A stretch of 61,498 nt of DNA from Desulfobulbaceae bacterium (GTDB lineage: Bacteria > Desulfobacterota > Desulfobulbia > Desulfobulbales > VMSU01), in assembly GCA_015231515.1 (NCBI GenBank), contig JADGBM010000006.1:1-61498 (forward strand), read 5' to 3'. The position numbers were made by a program, and so were the translations under genes. Under the pieces are notes generated by a model. It searched no databases. It was given only the letters and a program-made list of their open reading frames with translations, and had not been told where the DNA came from. Positions 41,259 through 54,546 of this stretch are shown here, piece after piece (the stretch's first letter is position 1; every line of letters starts with the position of its first letter).

Positions 41259-43514
41259 ATGTTTCGCATTCGACGTATCTATGATGATATCCTGCCGGGT
41301 AATCAAGATAGTATCGGCCAGGTTCAGGATATTCTACGCTCCCGATTCAACGCAGTCTCCGCAGAGGAAATTGAATCTATCGGCGAGAAACTCAGGAATC
41401 CATTCAAGCAACGTTTTCGCTCAGTCCTTTTTGTAGCTGAAAAGGGAAAAGGCAAAGTTGTGGGGTTTGCGCTTTTGCTTCATGAGCCCGTGATCGGTTT
41501 CACTTATCTTGACTGGATTGCCATGGAAACCGGACGTGGCGGTTCCGGCATGGGCGGCGCTCTTTATGAACAGATTCGCAAGGAATCAGTGGCCCTTAAA
41601 GTAAAGGGCCTTTTTTTCGAATGTCTGCCTGATGATGAAAAGGAATGTTCAGATAAAAATCTGCTTAAAGAAAATCGGGCACGGCTTCGTTTTTATGAAC
41701 AGTATGGGGCAAGGCCATTAATAAATACTGGCTATGAGCTTCCGGTTAACCCCGGTGATAGTTGCATGCCGTACCTGGTTTATGACGGACTAAAAGAGCA
41801 GAAACCACCACATCGTGCTTTTGCACGTAAGGTGGTGCGGGCAATTTTGGAACGTAAATATGCAGAGTTATGCCCGGCAGAATATGTTACGAAAGTGGTC
41901 GATGGGTTCCGGGAAAATCCGGTTTCTTTACGAGAATTTCGCTATGTCAAGCCCGATGCCGTTGTCAATAATGTTGATGCTTTGGACTTTGAACATATTG
42001 CCCTGGTCATTAATGATAAGCACGATATTCATCATATAAGCGATAGAGGGTATGTCGAATCTCCTGTTCGCATAAAAAATATTGTCTCTGAGCTCGATAA
42101 AAGCGGTCTTTTTAGTAAAATTAACCCTCAAGCCTTTCCTGAGAGACATATCCACGAAGTTCATGCCCCTGACTTTGTTAACTACCTTAAGCGTGCTTGT
42201 AATGAGGTTCCTGAGGGGAAATCTCTCTATCCCTATATCTTTCCAATTCGAAATAAGACCCGCCCCCCGAAGGAACCATCAGTTCTCAGCGGGTATTACT
42301 GTTTCGATACTTTTACACCAATTAACAAAAATGCCTACCTGGCGGCCCGCCGAGCTGTGGACTGTGCTCTTACCGCTGCCCAGGAAGTTCTTAATGGCAG
42401 GAGACTTGCCTATGCCCTGGTAAGGCCTCCGGGGCATCATGCCGAAAACAGTGTGTTTGGTGGATTCTGCTACTTTAACAACAACGCCGTTGCCGCCCAA
42501 TATTTGAGTCAATATGGCAAAGTAGCCATTCTCGATATCGATTATCATCATGGCAACGGACAGCAGGATATATTTTACCGTCGTTCGGATATCCTGACTA
42601 TTTCGTTGCACGGTCACCCAAGTTTTGCGTATCCGTATTTTGCTGGTTTTGCCGAAGAGACAGGCGAGGGAGAGGGTGAAGGGTTTAATCTCAATTTACC
42701 TTTGCCGGAAAAACTCGACGGCGAAGGGTATCGCAAGGCCCTGGTTAAGGCACTTAATCGTATTGAAGCCTTTCATCCAGCTTTTCTGGTTGTTGCTCTT
42801 GGCCTTGATCCTGCCAAGGGTGATCCGACCGGCACCTGGAATCTTTTAGCTCGTGATTTTCGAATTAATGGTGAGGTGATTGGTTCTCTTGGGTTGCCCA
42901 CCGTAGTCGTTCAGGAAGGTGGCTATCGTACGGCAACATTGGGAAAAAATGCGCGCTCTTTTTTCTCTGGCCTTAGTGATGCCGTCCGTAAATGGGCCAA
43001 CTCCAAACATGAACAGAAAAACAAGCTGCATGGTCTTAAATTACGCTATGAAATTGCAGCAGAAGATTGCCAGCGCCTTAAGCAGATCGTCGCCTCGACA
43101 GGATTCTTTCATGACGATGAAGTCGAACTGGCTGTAGAACTCGCGGAGGAGAGGCTGTCGAAGGGTGATGCCAGCGGTTATTTCTTCGTGTTAGCTGAAC
43201 ATTATGGGCGTGTTGTTGGATACACCTGTTATGGCCCAATTCCATGCACAAAAAACAGTTATGACCTTTACTGGATAGCTGTTCATCCAGACTACCAGGG
43301 AAGGGGAGTTGGGAACCAGCTAATGCAGAACACAGAGCGTAATATTAAAAAAAATGGTGGTGAGCGGATCTATATTGATACCTCTCAGCGCCCCCAATAT
43401 ATATCCACTCGAACCTTTTATGAACGATTCGGCTACCATCTTGAGACCATATTGGCTGATTTTTACGGCCCCGATGATGGCAAAGTCATCTATTGTAAGA
43501 AATTGGTAAAATAA
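41259..43514 (+). CDS. GNAT-histone deacetylase-like-GNAT fusion protein
   Basis: A 751-residue protein with three enzyme parts. Residues 1-170 are an acetyltransferase-like (GNAT) domain (VVGFALLLHEP; GRGGSGMGGALYEQI). Residues about 250-590 are an HDAC/acetylpolyamine aminohydrolase-type Zn deacetylase: LVRPPGHHAE with His393/394, DIDYHHGNGQQ (Asp426, Asp428, His430/431), Asp517 in LGLDPAKGDPTG, and Tyr556 in QEGGY. The C-terminal 140 residues are a second GNAT domain (WIAVHPDYQGRGVGNQLM). All zinc ligands and the catalytic Tyr are present. It ends the kamA operon and could both add and remove acetyl groups on the pathway product. Confidence 0.9.
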   Translation: MFRIRRIYDDILPGNQDSIGQVQDILRSRFNAVSAEEIESIGEKLRNPFKQRFRSVLFVAEKGKGKVVGFALLLHEPVIGFTYLDWIAMETGRGGSGMGGALYEQIRKESVALKVKGLFFECLPDDEKECSDKNLLKENRARLRFYEQYGARPLINTGYELPVNPGDSCMPYLVYDGLKEQKPPHRAFARKVVRAILERKYAELCPAEYVTKVVDGFRENPVSLREFRYVKPDAVVNNVDALDFEHIALVINDKHDIHHISDRGYVESPVRIKNIVSELDKSGLFSKINPQAFPERHIHEVHAPDFVNYLKRACNEVPEGKSLYPYIFPIRNKTRPPKEPSVLSGYYCFDTFTPINKNAYLAARRAVDCALTAAQEVLNGRRLAYALVRPPGHHAENSVFGGFCYFNNNAVAAQYLSQYGKVAILDIDYHHGNGQQDIFYRRSDILTISLHGHPSFAYPYFAGFAEETGEGEGEGFNLNLPLPEKLDGEGYRKALVKALNRIEAFHPAFLVVALGLDPAKGDPTGTWNLLARDFRINGEVIGSLGLPTVVVQEGGYRTATLGKNARSFFSGLSDAVRKWANSKHEQKNKLHGLKLRYEIAAEDCQRLKQIVASTGFFHDDEVELAVELAEERLSKGDASGYFFVLAEHYGRVVGYTCYGPIPCTKNSYDLYWIAVHPDYQGRGVGNQLMQNTERNIKKNGGERIYIDTSQRPQYISTRTFYERFGYHLETILADFYGPDDGKVIYCKKLVK

Positions 43515-43558: not shown

Positions 43559-43684
43559 ACTATATGCTTCACTTGAAGTCGTCCGAATTCGCTCATGATT
43601 TTACAATAATTATGCACCTTGACTTGCATCCCAGTTGAGAATACAAATGAATATACTATTGAGACTCAAAAAGGAGGTCTTTTT

Positions 43685-43972
43685 ATGAAATTCCTGAGTG
43701 TGCGTGACTTAAAGGGAAAATCTTCTCAAATATGGAAGGAGTTGCCTGAAGAAAAAGAGATGGTTCTGACCAGCAATGGGAGGCCCATCGCAATTCTTAG
43801 CTCCATAAATGAAGATAATTTAGAACAGGTATTGTCGGCATTTAGACGGGCTCGCGCCATAGAAGCTGTGGCAGCGCTTCAATATAAATCAGCCGTCAAA
43901 GGCACTAGCAATCTCACAATGAAAGAAATTGACAAAGAAATCATAGCTGTTCGAAAACAGAGAAAAAAATGA
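43685..43972 (+). CDS. Phd/YefM-family antitoxin (TA pair 1)
   Basis: The ATG at 43685 is chosen because AAAAAGGAGG lies just upstream. The 95-residue product has the Phd/YefM N-terminal fold (MKFLSVRDLKGKSSQIWKELPEEKEMVLTSNGRPIAILS), followed by a helical C-terminus that would bind the toxin. It should repress its own promoter and neutralise the PIN protein. Its stop overlaps the toxin start by 4 nt, a typical arrangement. A possible -35 (TTGACT at 43619) lies upstream. Confidence 0.9.
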   Translation: MKFLSVRDLKGKSSQIWKELPEEKEMVLTSNGRPIAILSSINEDNLEQVLSAFRRARAIEAVAALQYKSAVKGTSNLTMKEIDKEIIAVRKQRKK

Positions 43973-44400
43973 AAATCGTCTTGGATACGAACGTTCTGGT
44001 TTCCGGCCTGCTCACCCCATTTGGGACGAGTGGTGAAATCATAAGGATGGTTTCATCGGGGCAACTTGTTTTATGCTACGATGCGAGGGTTTTGGCAGAA
44101 TATAGAGATGTTCTTCTTCGTCCCCGCTTTCAGTTCGACCCTGAGCATATTTCCGCACTGCTTGATTACATACAACATGCTGGTCAAGTCTATCCAACCC
44201 AACCATTACCAAATCCATTACCTGATCAAGATGACGAGCCATTTTTAGAAGTAGCCATTGCAGGAAAGGTATCTTGTCTGGGCACAGGTAATAAAGCGCA
44301 TTTTCCAAAAAGTTATTTGCAAGGTATGAAGCTTTTTTCTCCCACCGATTTTCTCAAATACTATAGAGGGAAAAAGGAAGATACAGAACAATTGCATTGA
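43969..44400 (+). CDS. PIN-domain toxin (COG1569 type, TA pair 1)
   Basis: A 143-residue PIN protein: VLDTNVLVSGLLTPFGTSGEI at the start with the catalytic Asp, EYRDVLLRPRF and DQDDEPFLEVAIAGKVSCLGTGN in the active-site region. The GN in place of the usual GD/RD in the last motif is also seen in other COG1569 proteins. Expected activity is RNA cleavage. It overlaps the Phd antitoxin by 4 nt, so the pair is a type II TA module. No feature suggests inactivation. Confidence 0.9.
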   Translation: MKIVLDTNVLVSGLLTPFGTSGEIIRMVSSGQLVLCYDARVLAEYRDVLLRPRFQFDPEHISALLDYIQHAGQVYPTQPLPNPLPDQDDEPFLEVAIAGKVSCLGTGNKAHFPKSYLQGMKLFSPTDFLKYYRGKKEDTEQLH

Positions 44401-44479
44401 GAGGCCCTACCCCTGACCTCGTGCAGAAAAAAAATCCCGATCATCTTCCGCTCAGCTCAATGCGATGGTTCGCTTTTGT

Positions 44480-44699
44480 CTATATGTGATTTGGCATAGT
44501 TTCATGGAAAATAGGTTTTACGGTTTTCCAAGATTTTGAATCATGCGCTGCATGCCAAAGATCATAATTTTTTTTGCAGGTTCAGCCATAACTCAGGGGT
44601 GGTGTCGAAAGCACGAGATAACCTCAAGGCCATGTCAGGTGTAACAGCACCACGGCAGTTGATAATTTTAGATAGAGTCTTCCTCTTTTTATAACCCCC
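44480..44699 (-). pseudogene. Frameshifted remnant of a HigA-type antitoxin
   Basis: Reading the minus strand gives KRKTLSKIINCRGAV then TPDMALRLSRAF then TTPELWLNLQ, the Xre/HigA signature, then a stop after an eight-A run. If the run had seven A (one less), the frame would continue NYDLWHAAHDSKSWKTV to a stop at 44480-44482. The N-terminal helix-turn-helix half is absent. So this is a decayed antitoxin with a +1 slip, and no toxin gene is adjacent. Confidence 0.8.
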
Positions 44700-44791
44700 A
44701 TTTTGACTACAAAAAAGGCGATATAAGGGGAGGAAACGAGCTCTTTTGACGAAAATATTTCGTGATATTAATCAGTTTATTGATTTGCTGG

Positions 44792-44819
44792 TTGATAAAT
44801 ATCATTAAAACACTATAAT
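44792..44819 (+). promoter_or_regulatory. Promoter of RHH/RelE TA pair
   Basis: TTGATA (44792-44797) and TATAAT (44814-44819) are 16 nt apart. It lies about 40 nt before the antitoxin start. The palindrome entry just downstream is the likely operator. Confidence 0.65.
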
Positions 44820-44823
44820 TGTG

Positions 44824-44835
44824 TATACATGTATA
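44824..44835. promoter_or_regulatory. Perfect 12-bp palindrome, likely antitoxin operator
   Basis: TATACATGTATA is a perfect palindrome placed right after the -10 box and before the RHH antitoxin start. Ribbon-helix-helix antitoxins bind such sites as dimers to control their own operon, so this is a likely autoregulatory operator. Its role is inferred. Confidence 0.6.
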
Positions 44836-44854
44836 GCATTCGGAGGAAGAAACC

Positions 44855-45079
44855 ATGTTAGCATTACGTTTACCCAAAGACATCGAACAACGGCTTGAGA
44901 GCCTGGCCAAAAAATCCGGCCGTTCAAAGTCGTTTTACGCGCGGGAGGCTATTCTTGAGCACTTAGACGATTTAGAGGCGACCTATCTTTCCTCTAAAAT
45001 CCTTAACCGCGTCGACAGCGGAGTTGAGCAAACTTACACTCTTGACGAGTTGGAGAAGGAACTTGGCCTGGAAGGTTAA
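44855..45079 (+). CDS. Ribbon-helix-helix antitoxin (TA pair 2)
   Basis: A 74-residue protein with a RHH N-terminus (MLALRLPKDIEQRLESLAKKSGRSKSFYAREAILEHL) and a negatively charged, helical C-terminus that binds the toxin (LDELEKELGLEG). It is preceded by CGGAGGAAG. It overlaps the RelE gene (TTG start at 45063) and should repress the promoter at 44792. It is the RelB/CopG type found with RelE partners. It looks intact. Confidence 0.9.
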   Translation: MLALRLPKDIEQRLESLAKKSGRSKSFYAREAILEHLDDLEATYLSSKILNRVDSGVEQTYTLDELEKELGLEG

Positions 45080-45335
45080 AGTTACGGAAACTGCAAAAAA
45101 ACAGTTAGCCAAGCTTGACGTACAAACACAAAAAGAGATCATTCAATATATGAGAGAGAGAATCTCTACAATTGAAGACCCTCGCCGCTTTGGCGCAGCA
45201 TTGCGACGTGAATTGACCGGTCGTTGGAAATATCGAGTCGGAGACTATCGGCTGATCTGCGAAATTCAAGAAGAGGACGTTGTTGTCCTCGTTTTAATGA
45301 TCGGGCACCGATGTAAAATTTACGGCGGTCATTGA
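45063..45335 (+). CDS. RelE/ParE-family toxin (TA pair 2)
   Basis: I choose the TTG at 45063 (LAWKVKVTETAKKQLAKL) because it overlaps the antitoxin end and has GGAGAAGGA upstream; a longer frame would start inside the antitoxin. The 90-residue product has the RelE pattern AWKVKVTETAKKQLAKLD, FGAALRRELTGRWKYRVGDYRLICEIQ and VLVLMIGHR. It likely cleaves mRNA on the ribosome. With the RHH antitoxin it forms a complete module. Confidence 0.88.
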   Translation: MAWKVKVTETAKKQLAKLDVQTQKEIIQYMRERISTIEDPRRFGAALRRELTGRWKYRVGDYRLICEIQEEDVVVLVLMIGHRCKIYGGH

Positions 45336-45361
45336 TCTATGTTTCATGCCTTTCTCGGAAT

Positions 45362-45380
45362 AAAACGGGGGCAGACCACG
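45362..45380 (+). repeat. REP-like element beside the RAYT remnant
   Basis: AAAACGGGGGCAGACCACG lies just left of the RAYT remnant. The same unit occurs at 46669-46687, and TGGTCTGTCCC, its reverse complement, occurs at 45854-45864 to the right of the remnant. It is of a different sequence class from the REPs at 30-31 kb. Confidence 0.7.
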
Positions 45381-45395
45381 CTTTTACAGGCAAAC

Positions 45396-45821
45396 TTATT
45401 GCTTACGCGGCCTCCGGGCAACTCCAGGTACCACTCGTCGCCCTAGTGCCTGTGCAATTTCTTTTTGGAATCGGTCATTGCCAAGAACAAAATTACCATT
45501 AGTAGCTTTGCGAATTTTATTTACCACACTAGACTCCAATTGATATCGAAATAATTCTCTGTAGGCTGTTTGTGTTTCTGACTTTTTTGCACCCAGCTGC
45601 CGGTAAAGAGTATGAGGTTTTGTGACCTTACAGATTTCTCCTTGAGCGTTAGCGCGGTAACTGGACCAAGGGTATTCGCCTGGGTGTTCACAACCAGCAT
45701 GTGAAAAGATAATCGTCATCCGCAAAAAAAAACATGCTTGGCGATTGTTGCCTCGCTGAATGATGTGAAAAGGAACTCCGGAATATATAAGGCGTGCTCG
45801 TCTTGGCATGCTTTCTGTCAA
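45396..45821 (-). pseudogene. Remnant of a second RAYT transposase
   Basis: The minus-strand frame opens PRRARLIYSGVPFHIIQRGNNRQACFF, the RAYT N-terminus, then breaks. The continuing family segment FFADDDYLFTCWL is present only in a shifted frame, and the frame resumes at HPGEYPWSSYRANAQG, skipping the part that should carry the HUH motif and Tyr. The C-terminus (GNDRFQKEIAQALGRRVVPGV) is present. So there is one frameshift and one large internal deletion, and the protein cannot be active. Confidence 0.85.
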
Positions 45822-46014
45822 GCCACAATTTCACATCGGCGCCAAGTAAAAAACCTGGTCTGTCCCATATTCTTTTCATATTCTTTTTTTGGAGCACAAC
45901 GCAGGAAATAAGGCGCGGGCCGATGAACTTGCCGCATCATGGGCGAGATAGTACCGTCCGATTTTCATATTAACAACAAGAATGTGGGAAGTGCCCCTAG
46001 TTCACCTTCTTCTG

Positions 46015-46350
46015 TCACAAGTCACTGGATCGAGCGTTGATATTATACGTTCTATCAGCAAGCAGATATTTCCGAAGTTTTCTTTCGCTGCGCATAACAT
46101 AAAGAATGTAGACTTTGTCTTGAGTATAGCGATAAAAAATACGGCAAGGCCCAACAATGACTTCACGGTATCTTGATTTCATCAATTCAAGAGGAACACG
46201 ACCTGATTCAGGAAAATCCTCAAGGCGCTCAACGCTTGAAAATACTTTTTTTACCAAATATTTCGCAGCTCCAAGTTTATCAAGAGCAATATACTCAGCA
46301 ATGTCATTGAGGTCAGCTAAAGCAGGCTCTGTCCAGATTATTTGAGCCAT
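46015..46350 (-). CDS. ParE/RelE-family toxin (TA pair 3)
   Basis: A 111-residue protein with the RelE/ParE pattern: IIWTEPALADLNDIAEYIALDK, LEDFPESGRVPLE, YREVIVGPCRIFYRYTQDKVYILYVMRSERKL. This fold either cleaves mRNA or poisons gyrase. It overlaps the Phd antitoxin by 13 bp. The two are transcribed on the minus strand from a site near 46600. Module is complete. Confidence 0.9.
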   Translation of the reverse strand: MAQIIWTEPALADLNDIAEYIALDKLGAAKYLVKKVFSSVERLEDFPESGRVPLELMKSRYREVIVGPCRIFYRYTQDKVYILYVMRSERKLRKYLLADRTYNINARSSDL

Positions 46351-46595
46351 TTACTCAATTTTGCTTTTGCCTCATCATGACCACATGTTCTCTTTTCCAA
46401 GACAGCATTTTCTCCACGAGATAGTCCTTCTAAAATTTGCATGCGCCTTTGCATTAAATCATAGTCATTGGCGTCAATGAGATATGCAGATGGTTTACCA
46501 TGCTCAGTTATTAAGACTGGTTCTTTGGTGTCATGTAATTCGGCTAATATCTTGGTAGCTTGGCGTTTTAGTGTTGTAACAATTTCTATTTTCAT
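46338..46595 (-). CDS. Phd/YefM antitoxin (TA pair 3)
   Basis: An 85-residue antitoxin: MKIEIVTTLKRQATKILAELHDTKEPVLITEHGKPSAYLIDANDY, typical of the Phd/YefM fold, with a charged C-terminal toxin-binding region. It probably represses its own promoter through the palindrome at 46599-46618. It overlaps the toxin gene by 13 bp. It differs from the Phd antitoxin at 43685 and so comes from a separate module. Confidence 0.9.
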   Translation of the reverse strand: MKIEIVTTLKRQATKILAELHDTKEPVLITEHGKPSAYLIDANDYDLMQRRMQILEGLSRGENAVLEKRTCGHDEAKAKLSKWLK

Positions 46596-46598
46596 AAT

Positions 46599-46618
46599 AG
46601 TGATACTATACTGTCACT
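46599..46618. promoter_or_regulatory. Operator-like palindrome before TA pair 3
   Basis: AGTGATACTATACTGTCACT is an imperfect palindrome matching its reverse complement in 16 of 20 positions. On the minus strand it includes TATAGT, a good -10, with TTGCAA about 15 nt upstream. It ends a few bases before the antitoxin start. Confidence 0.6.
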
Positions 46619-46668
46619 TCCAGTCTTGCAAGTTTTTTTATCCGGGTTGTCAGACACGGTAGACTTGT

Positions 46669-46757
46669 AAAACGGGGACAGACCACGATTTCCCAGGCAA
46701 TCTTGGCATAAATCGTGGTCCCCAATTGTTCCAATTGTTCCGATTGTTTCCAATTGA
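46669..46757. repeat. REP-type inverted pair plus CAATTGTT tandem repeats
   Basis: AAAACGGGGACAGACCACG (46669-46687) is followed after a short gap by ATCGTGGTCCCC (46712-46723), which pairs with it as a hairpin (ACCACGAT with ATCGTGGT). Then comes a run of CCAATTGTT-like units up to 46757. It resembles a two-REP unit (REPIN) and matches the copy near the RAYT remnant. Confidence 0.7.
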
Positions 46758-46774
46758 GTGGTGTGGAAGGTAAG

Positions 46775-47188
46775 TCATTTCAATAAAAGTAAAAACCCGT
46801 CCTGCTCAAAATGTCTATCCGCAGTAAAGGCACGCTGTAAACGCATGGACTTCATTACTACAAAGCTGGTGCAATCGGTCAATCCCCATTCTTTATCAGG
46901 ACGGGAGCAGTAAAGTTTGTATGCCATTTCGGAAAGTTCAGGTGTGATCGTCACAAGATCAACAGCGGTAGATGTTTGAATGAAGTTGAGCAATTTGATG
47001 GCAACATCACGCAGAGGAGGGCGCGCCAGGGAGTTTGCGATTTCGACAGCGACAAAATTTGTGGTAATCAATTTGGTTTTTTGTTGGAGTAGTTGATCGC
47101 GTACAGCGCAGGCGGCTTTATGTAAATTGTCAGATTTGTTGACAAGCGCAAGCCAGGCAACTGTATCGACAAAGGTAGCGCTTGTCAT
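46775..47188 (-). CDS. PIN-domain toxin (VapC-like, TA pair 4)
   Basis: A 137-residue PIN protein: TFVDTVAWLALVNKSDNLHKAA with the first catalytic Asp, AVEIANSLARPPL with Glu, and EWGLTDCTSFVVM...AFTADRHFEQ carrying the further acidic residues. It probably cleaves RNA. Its ATG overlaps the stop of the upstream antitoxin (ATGA) on the minus strand. Pair looks intact. Confidence 0.9.
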   Translation of the reverse strand: MTSATFVDTVAWLALVNKSDNLHKAACAVRDQLLQQKTKLITTNFVAVEIANSLARPPLRDVAIKLLNFIQTSTAVDLVTITPELSEMAYKLYCSRPDKEWGLTDCTSFVVMKSMRLQRAFTADRHFEQDGFLLLLK

Positions 47189-47421
47189 TGCTTCGGTATC
47201 CCATACAGGTAATGGTCATGCTGCGAGGCGAGGTCGGTAATGCCGGTGTCTAGTGCCAGCGAATCAAGATCAGCAAGGGTGGCTGCCTGTTTTTTTTTCG
47301 ATTTAGTTTTGACTGGCGTAAAGATTTCAGTTTTCAGAAAATGCACCATTTTCAATATTTTTTTTTGCGCATCAAGAGGTAATGCTTCGATCTCATGGCA
47401 TAATTGTTGTTGGATGTTCAT
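47185..47421 (-). CDS. Short antitoxin of TA pair 4 (DUF2281-like)
   Basis: I take the ATG at 47421 (MNIQQQLCHEIEALP), preceded by CGGAG; a longer open frame upstream (to 47676) has no conserved content. The 78-residue product has the leading helix LCHEIEALPLDAQKKILKMVHFLK found in DUF2281-type antitoxins, then a disordered Lys/Ala-rich stretch and LASQHDHYLYGIPKQ at the end. Its stop overlaps the PIN toxin start. The family label is an inference. Confidence 0.8.
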   Translation of the reverse strand: MNIQQQLCHEIEALPLDAQKKILKMVHFLKTEIFTPVKTKSKKKQAATLADLDSLALDTGITDLASQHDHYLYGIPKQ

Positions 47422-47730
47422 GTCGGGCTCCGTGTTTGTCTGTGTGCTCTGCTTCGCAAACAGAGATGAGGAGCCATCATTTGACCAAGCTGCCATCTCC
47501 GCTGTCTGTACAAAAGAATAGACCAAAAGGCACTGCAAAGTCAAACAGATTTTGCGGGGAACGGGAGTTGGGGCCGGTGCCTCTGGGGGCAGAGGTCTTG
47601 AAAGATAAGTTTTAGAATATGCATGTAAGGGAGGAATCAAGAGGTAGGTGTCGCATAAGGAATTGTTATTATGCACAAATAGCCAACACGGAAAGTTGAG
47701 TAAAAAGAAATCAGGAGGTTGGCACTCATA
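47422..47730. other. Intergenic stretch, no gene seen
   Basis: Upstream of TA pair 4 lies a stretch with no coding region I can support, though it must contain the pair's promoter. Long open frames here have no recognisable content. Confidence 0.5.
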
Positions 47731-48265: not shown

Positions 48266-48536
48266 CCAAATGCCGTATATAAAATAAAAAACATGGTTAA
48301 CGCCATCCGGCATTGGCTCCGAGCTGCTCGACTTATTGTGATTACCCCGGACGAGAAAAAAACTCTCCCACTCGGCAAAGCAATCTTTTCCAAAGAAAAT
48401 GGCTGGGACCCTTGCTTTGAAGACGAGGCCACAATCTGGATCATTCGATGATGAAGACACTCGGCTTTACCTGTTAGCCAGCCTGATTGGAGATTGCTTG
48501 GCAGAGTGTGGCGATGGTGGCAATGTAAATGTGTAA
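48266..48536 (+). pseudogene. Broken DUF4007 gene upstream of the PAPS-reductase gene
   Basis: The frame with ATG at 48293 reads KNMVNAIRHWLRAARLI, then LPLGKAIFSKENGWDPCFED and EATIWIIR, then stops at 48449. This matches the DUF4007 segment GKNMV.AIR.W and GWDP.(L/F)ED.(A/G)T.W. Another frame (from 48447, DDEDTRLYLLASLIGDCLAEC) then runs to a stop at 48534-48536 and overlaps the next gene start by 8 nt, as the intact gene's tail would. So the N-terminus and a central part are lost and the frame is shifted. DUF4007 proteins are known neighbours of PAPS-reductase-like genes. Confidence 0.75.
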
Positions 48537-49329
48537 ATCAAAAAAAGTCCGGCATGTGCTTGGCATCTCAGGCGGCAAAGACAGTGCTGCCCTAGCGATT
48601 TACCTCAAACAACAAGGCAATATCCCGGAAATGGAATACTACTGTTCTGATACCGGCTGTGAGTTGCCCGAAACGTATGAGTTTATCGATAAACTGGAGA
48701 TGTATCTCGGTAAAAAAATAACTCGTATTGGTAACGATGCACCTTTTGAACATCATCTTTTCATGCTTGGCAATCTCTTGCCTTCACCCCGCCAGCGCTG
48801 GTGTACGGTAAAGATGAAATTGGAGCCATTTGAGAAATTTGTCGGTACTGATGAAGTTGTGAGTTACATCGGTATACGAGCTGATGAGTACCGGGAAGGA
48901 TATATCAGCACAAAACCAAATATAAAACCAGTTTTCCCTTTCATTCAAGATGGACTCACCAGAAAGGATATTTTCCAGATTCTCGAAGAATCAATTGGAA
49001 TTCCTGAGTATTACAAATGGCGCAGCCGCTCCGGTTGTTATTTTTGTTTTTTTCAACGACAGGAAGAGTGGCTTGGCCTTTATAAGCACCATCCTGACCT
49101 TTTTGAAAAGGCAATGGCTTTTGAAAAATATGACCCGGTAACTAAAGAAGGGTACACCTGGGTTGAAGGGATGTGTCTCAAAGATTTATTGGAAAGGAAA
49201 GATAAGATTTTTGAATTGGCTGACAAGAAAAGGCAGTTGAAGGACAATCGAAGTTGGCAACAAAAACTAATTGAAGATGGGTTAGATGATGACCCTGAGG
49301 ACCAAGCGTGTTTAATTTGCGCGTTGTGA
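48529..49329 (+). CDS. PAPS reductase family protein (DndC/CysH-like)
   Basis: A 266-residue ATP-pyrophosphatase-fold enzyme. The PP-loop is SGGKDS (14-19), followed by CSDTGCELPETYEFIDKLE, RQRWCTVKMKLEPFEKF, Cys170-Cys173 (CYFC) and a C-terminal Cys261-Cys264 (CLIC). The Cys pattern suggests an Fe-S cluster, as in DndC and SspD that place sulfur in DNA backbones. It is shorter than DndC (usually around 450-500). It is preceded by the broken DUF4007 gene and followed by an HNH endonuclease of the sulfur-binding class. No DndA, DndB, DndD or DndE gene is in view, so DNA sulfuration is not proven here. Confidence 0.85.
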   Translation: MCKSKKVRHVLGISGGKDSAALAIYLKQQGNIPEMEYYCSDTGCELPETYEFIDKLEMYLGKKITRIGNDAPFEHHLFMLGNLLPSPRQRWCTVKMKLEPFEKFVGTDEVVSYIGIRADEYREGYISTKPNIKPVFPFIQDGLTRKDIFQILEESIGIPEYYKWRSRSGCYFCFFQRQEEWLGLYKHHPDLFEKAMAFEKYDPVTKEGYTWVEGMCLKDLLERKDKIFELADKKRQLKDNRSWQQKLIEDGLDDDPEDQACLICAL

Positions 49330-49368
49330 GCCCCCACATATGAGTTCTAATCATCTGAGATTTGACTG

Positions 49369-50244
49369 TTGATTGATAAGTTTAACACATTAGCGATTTG
49401 GGAAAGAAATGGGGAGAGAGCACCCCATAAACCTTTATTGATATTATTTGCACTCGGTGAGTTTCTTCGAACCCCTCACCGGTCTATACCGTACCTGGAG
49501 GTTGATAAAAAACTTAGGGAGTTGCTTGAAGAATTTGGTCCAAACCGTGTCAACTACCACCCGGAATATCCATTTTGGCGGCTCCAGAAAGATGGGATAT
49601 GGGAAGTACATGGCGCGGATAAAATTGTGCTCACAAGTAGTGGTGATGCACGGAAAGGTGATCTGATCAAGGGAGATATTACCGGTTCACTTTCCGAGGA
49701 AATCAGAAAAGAGCTAACCCGTAATCCCAAGTTATTCCCCCAAATAGTCCAAAATATATTGAATGCCCATTTCCCCGCAACCATTCATGAAGATATATTG
49801 CAAAGTATTGGCATTGACCTATCTCTGAATGTTCAGGTTAAGTTGAAAAGAGGTTATGATTTCCGGAGCAAAATTTTACAAGCGTATGAATACCGCTGTT
49901 CTGTCTGCGGTTTTGATGTCAGATTGGGCCACACGCCAATTGCACTGGAGGCAGCACATATCAAATGGCACCAAGCTGGTGGGCCTGACGAAGAAATTAA
50001 TGGCTTGGCATTATGCGCACTGCACCATAAATTATTCGATCGAGGGGCATTTTCCTTGTCTGAAAACTTAGAAATTCTGGTTTCCGACAAGGCTAATGGC
50101 GCGCAAGGATTTAAAGAATGGCTTTTGGATTATCATGGCAGAAAAATATACTTTCCCCAACGTCAAACTTTTTATCCAAAGAGTGAATTTACCAAATGGC
50201 ATTCCGCAGAGGTTTTCAAAGGATACTCCAGGGAATTATTATAG
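49369..50244 (+). CDS. SBD-HNH restriction endonuclease (phosphorothioated-DNA-binding type)
   Basis: A 291-residue protein. The N-terminal part (about 15-150) matches the sulfur-binding domain of the McrA-like family: RAPHKPLLIL (17-26), HPEYPFWRLQKDGIWEV (64-80) and HFPATIHEDILQSIG (134-148). The C-terminal HNH nuclease has Cys177/Cys180, EAAHIKWH (195-201, His197), Asn211 and CALHHKLFD (Cys216, His219/220). Known members bind phosphorothioate DNA and cut nearby, acting as type IV restriction. The only in-frame start is TTG at 49369, right after a stop codon. It sits just after a PAPS-reductase gene. Confidence 0.85.
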   Translation: MIDKFNTLAIWERNGERAPHKPLLILFALGEFLRTPHRSIPYLEVDKKLRELLEEFGPNRVNYHPEYPFWRLQKDGIWEVHGADKIVLTSSGDARKGDLIKGDITGSLSEEIRKELTRNPKLFPQIVQNILNAHFPATIHEDILQSIGIDLSLNVQVKLKRGYDFRSKILQAYEYRCSVCGFDVRLGHTPIALEAAHIKWHQAGGPDEEINGLALCALHHKLFDRGAFSLSENLEILVSDKANGAQGFKEWLLDYHGRKIYFPQRQTFYPKSEFTKWHSAEVFKGYSRELL

Positions 50245-50337
50245 CTTATCAATAAGCACAGTGCCTACAAACCCACCTGTACTGTTGACGTGTTGACGTG
50301 ACGCCAGAACTAAACTATCCATTATAAGGCTTCACCT

Positions 50338-50922
50338 TTGAGTAACTTTTATGACGAAAACTACCGGCAGTACTTTGATTCAACTGTTGGTATTGATCCT
50401 TCCGCTTTCCTGCAACCTCTTGCCGACCGGCTGCGGCCACCGGCAACAATACTTGATGTTGGTTGTGGCTCTGGCCGTGATCTTCTGTGGCTTGCCAGTC
50501 GTGGTTATACTCCAACCGGTTTTGAACTGGCCCCAAAACTTGCTAGCCTGGCACGCGAACATGCCAACTGTCCCGTAATAGAAGGTGATTTTTGCCACTA
50601 TGATTTTTCTGCTCTTCGATTTTCCGCCCTTGTTTTTGTGGGTTCCTTGGTACACCTTCCCAAAGAGACTCTCCCCCTCATACTTAAGTCAACCTGTCTG
50701 GCCCTTGCCCCAGATGGCTTGCTGCTCATCACTCTGAAAGAAGGCCGTGGCTTTTCCTGTGCAGATGACGGTCGTGTTTTTACTTTATGGTCGAGAAAGG
50801 AAATTGAGAAAATTTTTGCGGCACACAACATTCAAGTCCTAGATTTTTCCAAGCAGGTTTCAAAATTACGATCAAATGATATTTGGCTTGGGTACGTGTT
50901 GAGGCTGAATAATGGGCCGTGA
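50338..50922 (+). CDS. Class I SAM-dependent methyltransferase
   Basis: A 194-residue methyltransferase with TTG start (SNFYDENYRQYFDST). Motif I is ILDVGCGSGRDLL (38-50), followed by EGDFCHYDF and an aromatic-rich tail (LSKQVSKLRSNDIWLGYVLRL). It lacks the NPPY/DPPY motif of DNA N6-adenine or N4-cytosine methyltransferases and so may modify a protein, RNA or small molecule. Its last 11 bp overlap the start of the helicase gene, so the two are translationally coupled. This linkage suggests that they act together. Confidence 0.85.
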   Translation: MSNFYDENYRQYFDSTVGIDPSAFLQPLADRLRPPATILDVGCGSGRDLLWLASRGYTPTGFELAPKLASLAREHANCPVIEGDFCHYDFSALRFSALVFVGSLVHLPKETLPLILKSTCLALAPDGLLLITLKEGRGFSCADDGRVFTLWSRKEIEKIFAAHNIQVLDFSKQVSKLRSNDIWLGYVLRLNNGP

Positions 50923-53900
50923 ATCGCATTGTTGCCTGGATGATCTGCATTATTGGCTTTTTGATCTTGGTTTTGAGCAAATTAATCAGGAGAATTCAGG
51001 CTGCACTTTTCACATGAAAGATGATGACATCTGCCTTGTTCTTGACACTGTTATCTGTGAACTTTCCGACTATCCTTATGTAGCTTATACCAGCCGACAG
51101 AATGAGTTGATGACTACTCATGGCCAGGTCTTTCGATTTCTCTATGATCAGGACAGCCCAGTTACTGACCTTCAACGAGAGATCACTATGTTTCTTGAGG
51201 GCGAGAGTGATCCAGAACTAATTAGACGCTTTGGTGGCAACCGGACAGAGCAGGAACCCGATCCGACGCTACCAGAAGCTACCTTTGAAGATTGTTTTTT
51301 GGATGCCTTTGGTGATCGGGATCGAATGGCTTTACACCGTGAATTTTCTTATGTCGATTTTAAAGGTGTTATCCGCTATGTCGACTATGCCCTGTTTGCT
51401 CTGTCAGCAAAATTTGCTATTGAGCTTAATGGCGAAAGTTTTCATCACCCGGCAGTAATTGGTCCACAGCGGTACCGATCTCAGCTATTTAAACAAAATT
51501 CTCTGGTTGCTGATGGCTTCAAAGTTTTTCGCTGGTCTTTACACGGTATGCGGGATCGCGAACGATTTATCCTAGAGCTTTCAAGATTCATGGGGCATTC
51601 CGGGCCTTTCCTCGATAAGTCAATTTTTAAACTAAGTCGCTCTGTACAGACTTTAAGTCACTCTACACAAGCTTTTTCTTTAAAAGATCATCAGCAACAA
51701 GCGCTGGAACAATTGAGTGATGCCAGAGAAGAAGGACGGAATACATTTTTACTTGTTCTGCCGACAGGAACAGGAAAAACAGAAATATTTATTGAAGATT
51801 TGGTTCGATTAAAAAAAATTGCTCCCGATTTGAAAGCACTGGTCATTGTTCCTACCAGGGAATTACGGAAGCAGACTCTTGCCAGGTTCAAACTCCGACT
51901 ACCTTATCATTTCCAAAATAGCATCTCCATTAATCTTCTAGATGAAAATACGGCCGACTTTTTCGTGCAAACAACAGCCTATCTTCATCGTCATTACTAT
52001 AAAATTGCGGCAGACCGCTTTGACTATATTGTCGTTGATGAAGCTCATCATGCAGCGGCCCAAGGCCTGCGAAGTATCCTTGCACATTTCAGCCCTACCC
52101 ATCTTCTTGGTGTCACTGCAACTCCAGAGCGTTTTGATCAGCAAAGTCTTGAAGAGATATTCGGTGAGTATGAACCTCAACTTTCACTAGAGGAAGCTAT
52201 CTGCCAACAACTTGTGCCTCCTGTTCGATGTTATAGAGCCAAGTCCAATATTGATCTCTCTGAAGTTCGATTCAATGGTCGTGAATTTGTTAAAAATGAT
52301 TTGCAAAGAACCCTACTGGTTCCTTCGCGGGACCAACTTATTGCCGATCTCTTGACCCGATATTTTGGTGGTGAATTTTCGTGCAAGCAGGGAGTTATTT
52401 TTTGCGTTGATATAAAACACGCTAGAAGGATGGCGGATCTTTTAAGAAATCAAGGTATAACAGCCGGTGCTGTTGATGGCAGAGATAGAAAAAATGCGGC
52501 CAAGGCGCAAAAAGCCTATGATGAAGGTTTGATCCGTTTTCTCTGCGCTTGCGACCTCCTTACCGAAGGATGGGATGCACCGCAAACTTCTATTCTGGTC
52601 ATGGCACGGCCAACTTTTTCGAAAGTGCTTTATTCGCAGCAACTTGGACGTGGTCTTCGTAATTATAAAGACAAGGAGGCTCTTTATGTTATCGATGTTG
52701 TTGATAATTATGGGGCCAAACTTCACCCTATGTCTTTGCATTCACTGCTAAAAGTTCCCAATTATCAGCCATTCACGAACTTGATTGAACCAGGGTCGCA
52801 AAGCCGCACCGAAGAGATTACCATTCTTGATGGCCTTTATGAGGGTGAGCGGCGGATTGAGCCAGTTGATATTTTCAGTTTCGAGGAGATGTATGGTTCT
52901 TTTCTGAATGAAGAGCAGTTGGCGAGAGAACTCTTCGTTTCCACTGGGACAGTTCGGCAGTGGCTCCGCAAAAGAAGAATTTTTTCCGATGTGCAATACC
53001 CCTTCGGGCGGAGGAACCTTCATTTTTTTGACCCCATACAGGTACCAAAGATACGCAAACAAGAGGGATTGCGGGAACACAATGCCGAAACAAGGGTAAC
53101 AGATTTTCTTGAGTTTCTTGAAAGTCGGGATTACACATTTTCATATAAGATAATATTCCTGCTTAGTTTTTTTAAAATACGCAATGAACGCTATGAGGCA
53201 TTCCTGCCAGACTTGCTTGAACTCTATCAACAATTTTATCAGAACCTTCTTGCCAGTAACAGTAAAAATGAGCGGGAATCATGCCCCTACAACCGCTTGG
53301 AATATGTAGATGATTTGACCTTACTTAAACGTAGTCTTCTTGAAAATCCTTTTGAGAAGTTTGAGAGAAAACGCTTCTTTTATCATTGTAAGGATTTGAA
53401 TTATCTGGCCATGGATCCTGTGCTTATTAACAATCTTACACCTGGTCATCATCAGAAAATTATTGAGCAGATGGTGCAAGATCTGCGTAATTATTTTGAT
53501 AAATTACAAGTATCACTATCGGTGTCTGATTATGCCTTTCTTTTACCTGAACCCCAGCAAGAAAAACCCCTGGCATTGTTTGTCGACCAGCCAACTGAAG
53601 AACAAAAGTATTCCACTGTACTTCCTTTTTATCCGCTCAGTATTGCGGCTGGTGAGTTTGGTGATTTATCTGTTCCAGATGAGCCGGAATCATGGTTTAG
53701 TGTGGAAGGTCTCACTACCAGACGAGCACTTTCAACACCAATGTTTGTTGCCCAAGTGCATGGGAAATCTATGGAACCAGTTATTCCGGATGGTGCATAT
53801 TGCCTATTTACTTTTGAAGTCGGAGGTACGAGAAATGGACGTATTGTGCTGGCCCAGAAAGCAGATATTTCCGACCAGGATACTGGCGCTAGTTTCACGG

Positions 53901-54082
53901 TTAAGACTTACCATTCGAGTAAAAGAGAAGACCAGCACACTGGCTGGCAACATGAAAACATTACTTTGCAACCGGCAAACTCCGACTATCAACAAATTAT
54001 TATTCCGATAGATGAAGCTGATGATTTCAAAATTATTGCCTTCTTCGTAGAGGTTTTAACCGGAAAACAGGTTGTGAGTTGA
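50912..54082 (+). CDS. Nuclease-SF2 helicase-HTH-S24 peptidase fusion
   Basis: A 1056-residue multidomain protein. After a short N-terminal domain comes a PD-(D/E)XK/DUF559-like nuclease segment (YVDYALFALSAKFAIELNGESFHH), then a DEAH-type SF2 helicase with Walker A LPTGTGKT (Lys289), DEAHHAAAQG, LLGVTATPERFD, and motif VI QQLGRGLRNYKDKE. A short helix-turn-helix (LARELFVSTGTVRQWLRKRR) follows. A long middle region precedes an S24/LexA-like peptidase: Ser953 in VHGKSMEPVIPDGAY and a likely Lys in TVKTYH. Autocleavage may switch the protein on or off. It overlaps the methyltransferase by 11 bp. I know no named system with exactly this set. Confidence 0.85.
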   Translation: MGRESHCCLDDLHYWLFDLGFEQINQENSGCTFHMKDDDICLVLDTVICELSDYPYVAYTSRQNELMTTHGQVFRFLYDQDSPVTDLQREITMFLEGESDPELIRRFGGNRTEQEPDPTLPEATFEDCFLDAFGDRDRMALHREFSYVDFKGVIRYVDYALFALSAKFAIELNGESFHHPAVIGPQRYRSQLFKQNSLVADGFKVFRWSLHGMRDRERFILELSRFMGHSGPFLDKSIFKLSRSVQTLSHSTQAFSLKDHQQQALEQLSDAREEGRNTFLLVLPTGTGKTEIFIEDLVRLKKIAPDLKALVIVPTRELRKQTLARFKLRLPYHFQNSISINLLDENTADFFVQTTAYLHRHYYKIAADRFDYIVVDEAHHAAAQGLRSILAHFSPTHLLGVTATPERFDQQSLEEIFGEYEPQLSLEEAICQQLVPPVRCYRAKSNIDLSEVRFNGREFVKNDLQRTLLVPSRDQLIADLLTRYFGGEFSCKQGVIFCVDIKHARRMADLLRNQGITAGAVDGRDRKNAAKAQKAYDEGLIRFLCACDLLTEGWDAPQTSILVMARPTFSKVLYSQQLGRGLRNYKDKEALYVIDVVDNYGAKLHPMSLHSLLKVPNYQPFTNLIEPGSQSRTEEITILDGLYEGERRIEPVDIFSFEEMYGSFLNEEQLARELFVSTGTVRQWLRKRRIFSDVQYPFGRRNLHFFDPIQVPKIRKQEGLREHNAETRVTDFLEFLESRDYTFSYKIIFLLSFFKIRNERYEAFLPDLLELYQQFYQNLLASNSKNERESCPYNRLEYVDDLTLLKRSLLENPFEKFERKRFFYHCKDLNYLAMDPVLINNLTPGHHQKIIEQMVQDLRNYFDKLQVSLSVSDYAFLLPEPQQEKPLALFVDQPTEEQKYSTVLPFYPLSIAAGEFGDLSVPDEPESWFSVEGLTTRRALSTPMFVAQVHGKSMEPVIPDGAYCLFTFEVGGTRNGRIVLAQKADISDQDTGASFTVKTYHSSKREDQHTGWQHENITLQPANSDYQQIIIPIDEADDFKIIAFFVEVLTGKQVVS

Positions 54083-54186: not shown

Positions 54187-54546
54187 ATGTCTGTGTTTGA
54201 TTATCAGGTAATAAATAAACCTCTTAAAAGGGCTAGTATGCCAAATCTAAAGTTGAAATATTTACAGCACCTTAAAGAAATTATGGAAGACACCTATCTT
54301 CAATTGCGAGAAAAAGGATCTACACCCGAGGGTCGCGACGATTATATCAATGGTTTTATTGATGCTGGTGTATCGATAGAACTTGCGAGCAATGAAGAAG
54401 TGCAATCAGTGATTGAAGATACCAACATGGAGGTGTTCGGAATTACAATCAGAGAGCGTCAAAAAGTATATAAGAATATTGAATTGTCATATGATGAGTA
54501 CATTGATGTGCCGACATTTTTTCGTAAAGGTAAGTTTACATTATAA
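54187..54546 (+). CDS. Small protein of unknown family
   Basis: A 119-residue protein if the ATG at 54187 is used; ATG at 54238 (MPNLKLKYLQHLK) with AAAAGGG upstream is also possible and gives 102 residues. It is mostly helical and charged (LKEIMEDTYLQLREKGSTPEGRDDYINGFIDAGVSIE). No family was recognised. It is the last gene before the island's right edge and follows the helicase by about 100 bp, so it could be a late addition to the defence block or a separate gene. Confidence 0.55.
   Translation: MSVFDYQVINKPLKRASMPNLKLKYLQHLKEIMEDTYLQLREKGSTPEGRDDYINGFIDAGVSIELASNEEVQSVIEDTNMEVFGITIRERQKVYKNIELSYDEYIDVPTFFRKGKFTL

Follow-up and report, generated by a model that had tools for sequence, protein, structure and literature searches.

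Results

Five elements on one strand

The window (i.e., the whole 61,498-nucleotide stretch of the Desulfobulbaceae contig that was analysed) carries on its + strand, between 48.29 and 54.08 kb, a DUF4007 fragment, sspD, a gene for an SBD-HNH nuclease, a small methyltransferase gene, and a gene for a 1056-aa nuclease-helicase-S24 protein. All five were recovered by matches to Pfam, PADLOC and NCBIfam, and their family matches are strong enough that chance can be dismissed; the gene identities and the phosphorothioate (PT) link proposed in the original prediction are right. That prediction also described the genes as mostly overlapping or closely spaced, which holds for the short gaps (39 bp from sspD to the SBD-HNH gene and 93 bp from there to the methyltransferase gene) but not for the overlaps, of which there is only one, the 11 bp shared by the methyltransferase and helicase genes. 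The SBD-HNH and methyltransferase genes both start with TTG. Base composition is flat across the block, and promoter-like sites occur within it no more often than expected by chance.

An origin of the block from a phage or plasmid was considered and rejected: no close relative of the helicase, the SBD-HNH protein or the methyltransferase was present in viral contigs, and plasmids yielded only distant relatives of the helicase. Upstream of the block are a toxin-antitoxin cluster at 43619-47676 (Phd with PIN_3, two ParE, and PIN), which encloses a truncated ORF (45396-45821) that resembles an IS200/REP-type transposase to the eye and has no Pfam match, and, at 41259-43514, a fusion of a histone-deacetylase-like domain with a GNAT acetyltransferase, adjoining an ATP-grasp ligase-like gene. 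A 119-aa orphan ORF (54187-54546) lies 3' of the helicase gene, and the only relative seen (L047:13644-13970, E 1.3e-6) is located close to an Ssp locus.

A collapsed Ssp cassette

In Ssp systems, SspB is the DUF4007 protein, SspC an AAA+ ATPase and SspD a PAPS reductase (PMC12839542), and the association of DUF4007 with PAPS reductases noted in the original prediction is this known SspB-SspD pair. Of 80 loci in other genomes that encode relatives of this SspD, 77 also have sspC and 71 have sspB, arranged B-C-D. In the window, sspB survives as an internal fragment of 53 codons (48287..48445, + strand) that matches positions 44-97 of the 288 in PF13182 (E 2.3e-11, match at 48287-48448) and lacks the N-terminus and most of the C-terminus, so the DUF4007 gene is broken, as had been proposed. 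The fragment aligns at 70% identity with residues 52-104 of the SspB of locus L002 (312 aa), with no SspB-like sequence on either side of it in that comparison, and at 68% identity with residues 50-102 of SspB in G087, a genome of the same order and the nearest relative. Joined to it, and forming a deletion scar at 48441..48500 (+ strand), are the probable last codons of sspC: by a short match, 10 of the 20 residues (50%) agree with the C-terminal end of G087 SspC (E 0.008), and the scar sits directly before sspD, where the end of SspC always falls.

A piece of SspB followed immediately by residues from the end of SspC is the pattern expected from one internal deletion. A standard sspB-sspC-sspD cassette would have been destroyed by a deletion from about codon 104 of sspB to the end of sspC, approximately 4 kb by the G087 coordinates, the start of sspB having been lost as well. 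What remains at 48287-49329 is an Ssp phosphorothioation cassette that has collapsed, with sspB and sspC lost. The closest Ssp locus, that of G087 (L212, 8110-13309), has sspB, sspC in three frames and sspD, with transposases on both sides; its split sspC reflects either real decay or assembly errors.

The host genome is a draft (95% complete, 225 contigs), and a further PT system could have escaped this assembly. Within it, the 53-codon stub is the sole DUF4007 match, so that there is no full-length SspB, and neither SspC (by a query for which this genome offered no positive control) nor DndC (TIGR03183) was detected; the presence of PT genes outside the window was rejected on these grounds, and the working sulfur-adding system once envisaged here is not supported by the same evidence. 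Because only sspD is whole, marking of the cell's own DNA should have ceased, and, judging from the broken marking genes, host DNA should be free of phosphorothioate.

The DndC/CysH-like enzyme of the original prediction is SspD itself (48529..49329, + strand), an orphaned PAPS-reductase/ATP-pyrophosphatase-like sulfurtransferase that covers the whole PADLOC SspD profile (6.5e-100). It retains the motifs SGGKDS, QRWCT, GCYFC and CLIC, is changed at only one of 75 near-invariant positions, and is 76% identical to G087 SspD; dN against G087 is not raised, and dS is saturated, so the dN/dS ratio is unusable. Because SspD is undecayed though it is expected to be useless alone, either the loss of its partners was recent or SspD has another use. 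Another orphan SspD, 53% identical, is encoded by a phage (L199:7869-8783, an IMG/VR contig), where terminase and portal genes flank it.

A predicted phosphorothioate-dependent nuclease and its linkage to SspD

The gene at 49369..50244 (+ strand) encodes a predicted SBD-HNH phosphorothioate-dependent restriction endonuclease, which scores 358.9 bits against NF045808 (PT-DNA_restrict; cut-off 180) over residues 3-284, has an HNH_2 Pfam match with the HNH around residues 177-230, and matches the solved sulfur-binding domains 5zmm and 7cc9. Enzymes of the SBD-HNH type cut PT-DNA, and HK and YP residues line the sulfur cavity of PT-binding enzymes (PMC6224610, PMC7461809); the corresponding H20-K21 and Y67-P68 are present here. 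Such nucleases are not expected in cells whose PT marking has the same specificity, and fewer than 3.6% of them lie near dnd genes, for which mutated clusters or inactive enzymes have been suggested as explanation (PMC7461809). The position of this SBD-HNH gene beside broken ssp genes fits the mutated-cluster suggestion.

A connection between SspD and SBD-HNH outside the window, whose absence would have spoken against any joint system, does exist, in that a full-length close SBD-HNH gene lies directly beside sspD at two of the 80 other SspD loci (L027 and L046). At L027, 61 bp separate SBD-HNH from an intact SspD downstream of it, neither sspB nor sspC is nearby, and the genome contains no DUF4007 at all. 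At L046, the adjoining pair is flanked by an N-truncated sspC and, on its other side, by type-4-BREX-like SspB, SspC, PglZ and BrxL; the downstream SspB and SspC are complete, so SspD has another partner there, and L046 may still mark DNA. In a test of 50 SspD genomes, five had a full-scoring SBD-HNH: beside SspD in L027 and L046, and elsewhere in L031, L078 and L034, the L034 copy having an internal stop. Among 395 genomes of the phylum, SBD-HNH exceeded its cut-off in two and SspD was found in 12, and the two occurred together only in the genome of the window, which speaks against a single joint system. SspD and SBD-HNH meet more often than chance predicts, yet rarely, and the link between them is real.

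A conflict between marking by SspD and cutting by SBD-HNH explains most of this pattern. The window, L027 and L046 agree with a rule by which intact SBD-HNH accompanies only broken sspBC, as do the SBD-only stubs by intact sspBCD in L015, L051 and L200. As a strict rule, however, it is contradicted by two of the 50 genomes, L031 and L078, in which intact SBD-HNH and apparently intact sspBCD coexist; these count against the conflict explanation, and because both sets of genes are kept intact, the rule is a tendency at most. The SBD-only proteins, which lack HNH and are encoded upstream of sspBCD (L051:4719-5285 and L015:4727-5164, both on the - strand, and L200:2159-2662, on the + strand of a viral contig), are either decayed remnants or independent readers of PT. 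Directly 3' of sspBCD at two further loci (L063:10788-13148 and L076:10785-13127), the SBD is fused to a P-loop NTPase of ~780 aa, possibly a further type of Ssp effector.

A recurrent methyltransferase and nuclease-helicase pair

The third unit, METHYLTRANSFERASE plus the nuclease-helicase-S24 gene (50338-54082, + strand), is an overlapping gene pair. The methyltransferase (50338..50922, + strand) belongs to the small class I SAM-dependent kind (Methyltransf_25, 1.1e-13). Its partner (50912..54082, + strand) is assigned nuclease, SF2 helicase, HTH-like and S24 domains, with Pfam matches to ResIII (6.3e-33), Helicase_C, and Peptidase_S24 (5.3e-08). The N-terminal domain (51269..51616, + strand) is a predicted Vsr/DUF559-like PD-(D/E)XK nuclease, in which D158, E171-x-N173-G, H178 and Q195 do not vary among four relatives, the most distant of them at 31% identity. 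Neither the domain library nor a profile search of solved structures returned a match for this domain and its single-sequence structure prediction had a pLDDT of 33; the putative fold is read from the motifs only.

At the C-terminus, a LexA/UmuD-like S24 domain (53495..54079, + strand) shows, in an alignment of 11 relatives, a LexA-type Ala-Gly site (A913-G914) and Ser-Lys dyad (S953 and K998), conserved in close relatives, which makes the predicted LexA-like cleavage switch plausible. A profile search of solved structures with this domain alone gave nothing. The same site and dyad persist in almost all those Schlafen-group-3 helicases of the same order that bear an S24 domain. Counting against a switch, the relative beside SBD-HNH in G078 has lost both the lysine and the Ala-Gly site, and that in G176 has lost the lysine. 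Schlafen-group-3 helicases with a C-terminal S24-like domain were seen in several genomes of the order (L134:1022-4293, in G078, and L137, L138, L139, L140 and L141), and the gene in G078 lies 45 bp before a full-scoring SBD-HNH gene.

The pair recurs in other taxa without its neighbors. Methyltransferase and helicase genes overlap or abut in G069, where the helicase is a full-length relative with 68% identity, and in G163, where it is frameshifted; in G176 and on a Pseudoalteromonas plasmid, the methyltransferase is paired with a PLD-helicase-S24 protein, in which PLD replaces the Vsr-like nuclease; a pair lacking S24 occurs on MT836124, a gut contig that carries a phage label, and G253 retains a remnant. 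No sspD was found in the genomes G069, G163, G176 or G253. Relatives of the methyltransferase adjoin SBD-HNH-like genes in G087, G197 and G222 (from a survey of neighbors) and sspA-sspB-sspC-sspD on plasmids of Devosia and Ensifer, so this methyltransferase often accompanies defence nucleases. Together with the nuclease-helicase-S24 protein, it forms a separate two-gene module, of which the databases and papers searched contain no description as a system.

Discussion

The block is probably best explained as a piece of a defence island made up of three units, i.e., an Ssp remnant, an SBD-HNH nuclease, and a methyltransferase with its nuclease-helicase-S24 partner. Our confidence in this anatomy is high, and in the mechanism moderate. 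With the marking genes of the host broken and its DNA presumably unmarked, SBD-HNH would be tolerable in this cell, where it is predicted from its domains to bind phosphorothioate in incoming DNA that had been marked by the Dnd or Ssp systems of others and to cut nearby. The helicase would probably move along invading or damaged DNA, which the Vsr-like domain would cut, and, upon a DNA-damage signal (a RecA filament), the S24 domain would probably cleave itself at A913-G914 and alter this activity. We infer RecA-triggered self-cleavage by analogy to LexA and UmuD; a role of the methyltransferase in the module and an anti-phage function are likewise predictions.

That all five genes constitute one sulfur-adding or sulfur-sensing defence system, as the original prediction had it, might be argued from their common strand and short gaps and from the ssp genes beside the methyltransferases of this family on the Devosia and Ensifer plasmids. 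A joint system is nonetheless unlikely, indeed highly improbable: sspB is broken and sspC absent, no second locus with all five genes was found among those surveyed, and a five-gene operon is rejected because the methyltransferase-helicase pair occurs alone. If, at the other extreme, the whole block were decaying defence-island debris with no present function, then the sspB/sspC scar, the truncated transposase-like ORF and the many toxin-antitoxin genes would be readily accounted for; this is very unlikely, however, given that SspD, SBD-HNH, the methyltransferase and the helicase (1056 aa) all have intact genes whose catalytic motifs are conserved.

Two narrower alternatives concern the individual units. 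SspD and SBD-HNH could be a working pair independent of SspB and SspC, with SspD kept to help the nuclease by delivering or sensing sulfur, or to hold it in restraint. The L027 genome, which is without DUF4007, is a second independent case of this arrangement, the L046 genes are likewise adjacent and next to a truncated SspC, SspD is undecayed in all three places, and the single orphan SspD of 80 adjoins SBD-HNH as compared with one of the 79 others (arithmetic p ~0.025). Such a pair is still doubtful, since cases are very few, the gene order in L027 and L046 is reversed relative to the window, the L046 SspD has its type-4-BREX-like partners, and the phage contig L199 carries an orphan SspD without SBD-HNH. 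The methyltransferase and nuclease-helicase-S24 protein, for their part, might serve DNA repair in the SOS response and not defence: the helicase part matches RadD (6e-24, far below the cut-off), a LexA-like domain is present, and a RadD-like helicase needs no foreign target. This is unlikely in that the pair is patchy (its nuclease part occurs in only a handful of genomes of the class), sits among toxin-antitoxin and restriction genes, has its nuclease swapped for PLD, as in restriction helicases, and is broken in G163 and G253 and therefore dispensable. For both bolder readings to hold jointly, i.e., for orphan SspD with SBD-HNH to be a recurrent stripped-down unit and for the methyltransferase and nuclease-helicase to be an undescribed, DNA-damage-triggered defence module switched by self-cleavage, strikes us as distinctly unlikely.

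The three-unit block thus joins the known, an Ssp marking system (here collapsed) with a type of nuclease that fits its collapse, to a less well described two-gene module. The former supplies a naturally occurring case of the conflict that is predicted when a cell both puts sulfur into its DNA and possesses a nuclease for DNA so marked, and the scar of the deletion can still be read; the latter is a recurrent methyltransferase and nuclease-helicase-LexA-like pair whose switch, if it works, would tie a restriction-type enzyme directly to damage of the DNA.

The remnant shares with the SspABCD system of single-strand phosphorothioation a full-length SspD and, in standard order, an SspB fragment and the probable end of SspC; it differs in that sspB is cut to 53 codons, sspC is deleted, there is no sspA, and neither SspE nor SspFGH was found beside it. 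The DndABCDE system requires DndC, which the TIGR03183 search did not find in the draft genome. With EcoWI, SprMcrA and Bsp305I (NF045808), the nuclease has in common its domains, its length, the HK/YP cavity residues and a score twice the cut-off, and it differs in its rare position 39 bp from sspD. The helicase has the nuclease-SF2 helicase core of the PLD/HKD-SF2 helicase restriction enzymes (PADLOC mREase_IV, 3e-41; TIGR04095, 7e-13), i.e., the SauUSI-type type IV enzymes with DUF3427 and the Dnd-associated TIGR04095 proteins, but falls outside both groups, since a Pfam scan finds neither DUF3427 nor PLD and TIGR04095 yields 48 bits against a cut-off of 600; it bears a Vsr/DUF559-like nuclease instead of PLD and S24 instead of DUF3427, and is accompanied by an overlapping methyltransferase gene. 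As in the LexA/UmuD-type S24 autoproteases, an Ala-Gly site is followed by a GxSM serine and a downstream lysine, but the predicted self-cleaving domain here ends a nuclease-helicase, and not a DNA-binding or polymerase subunit.
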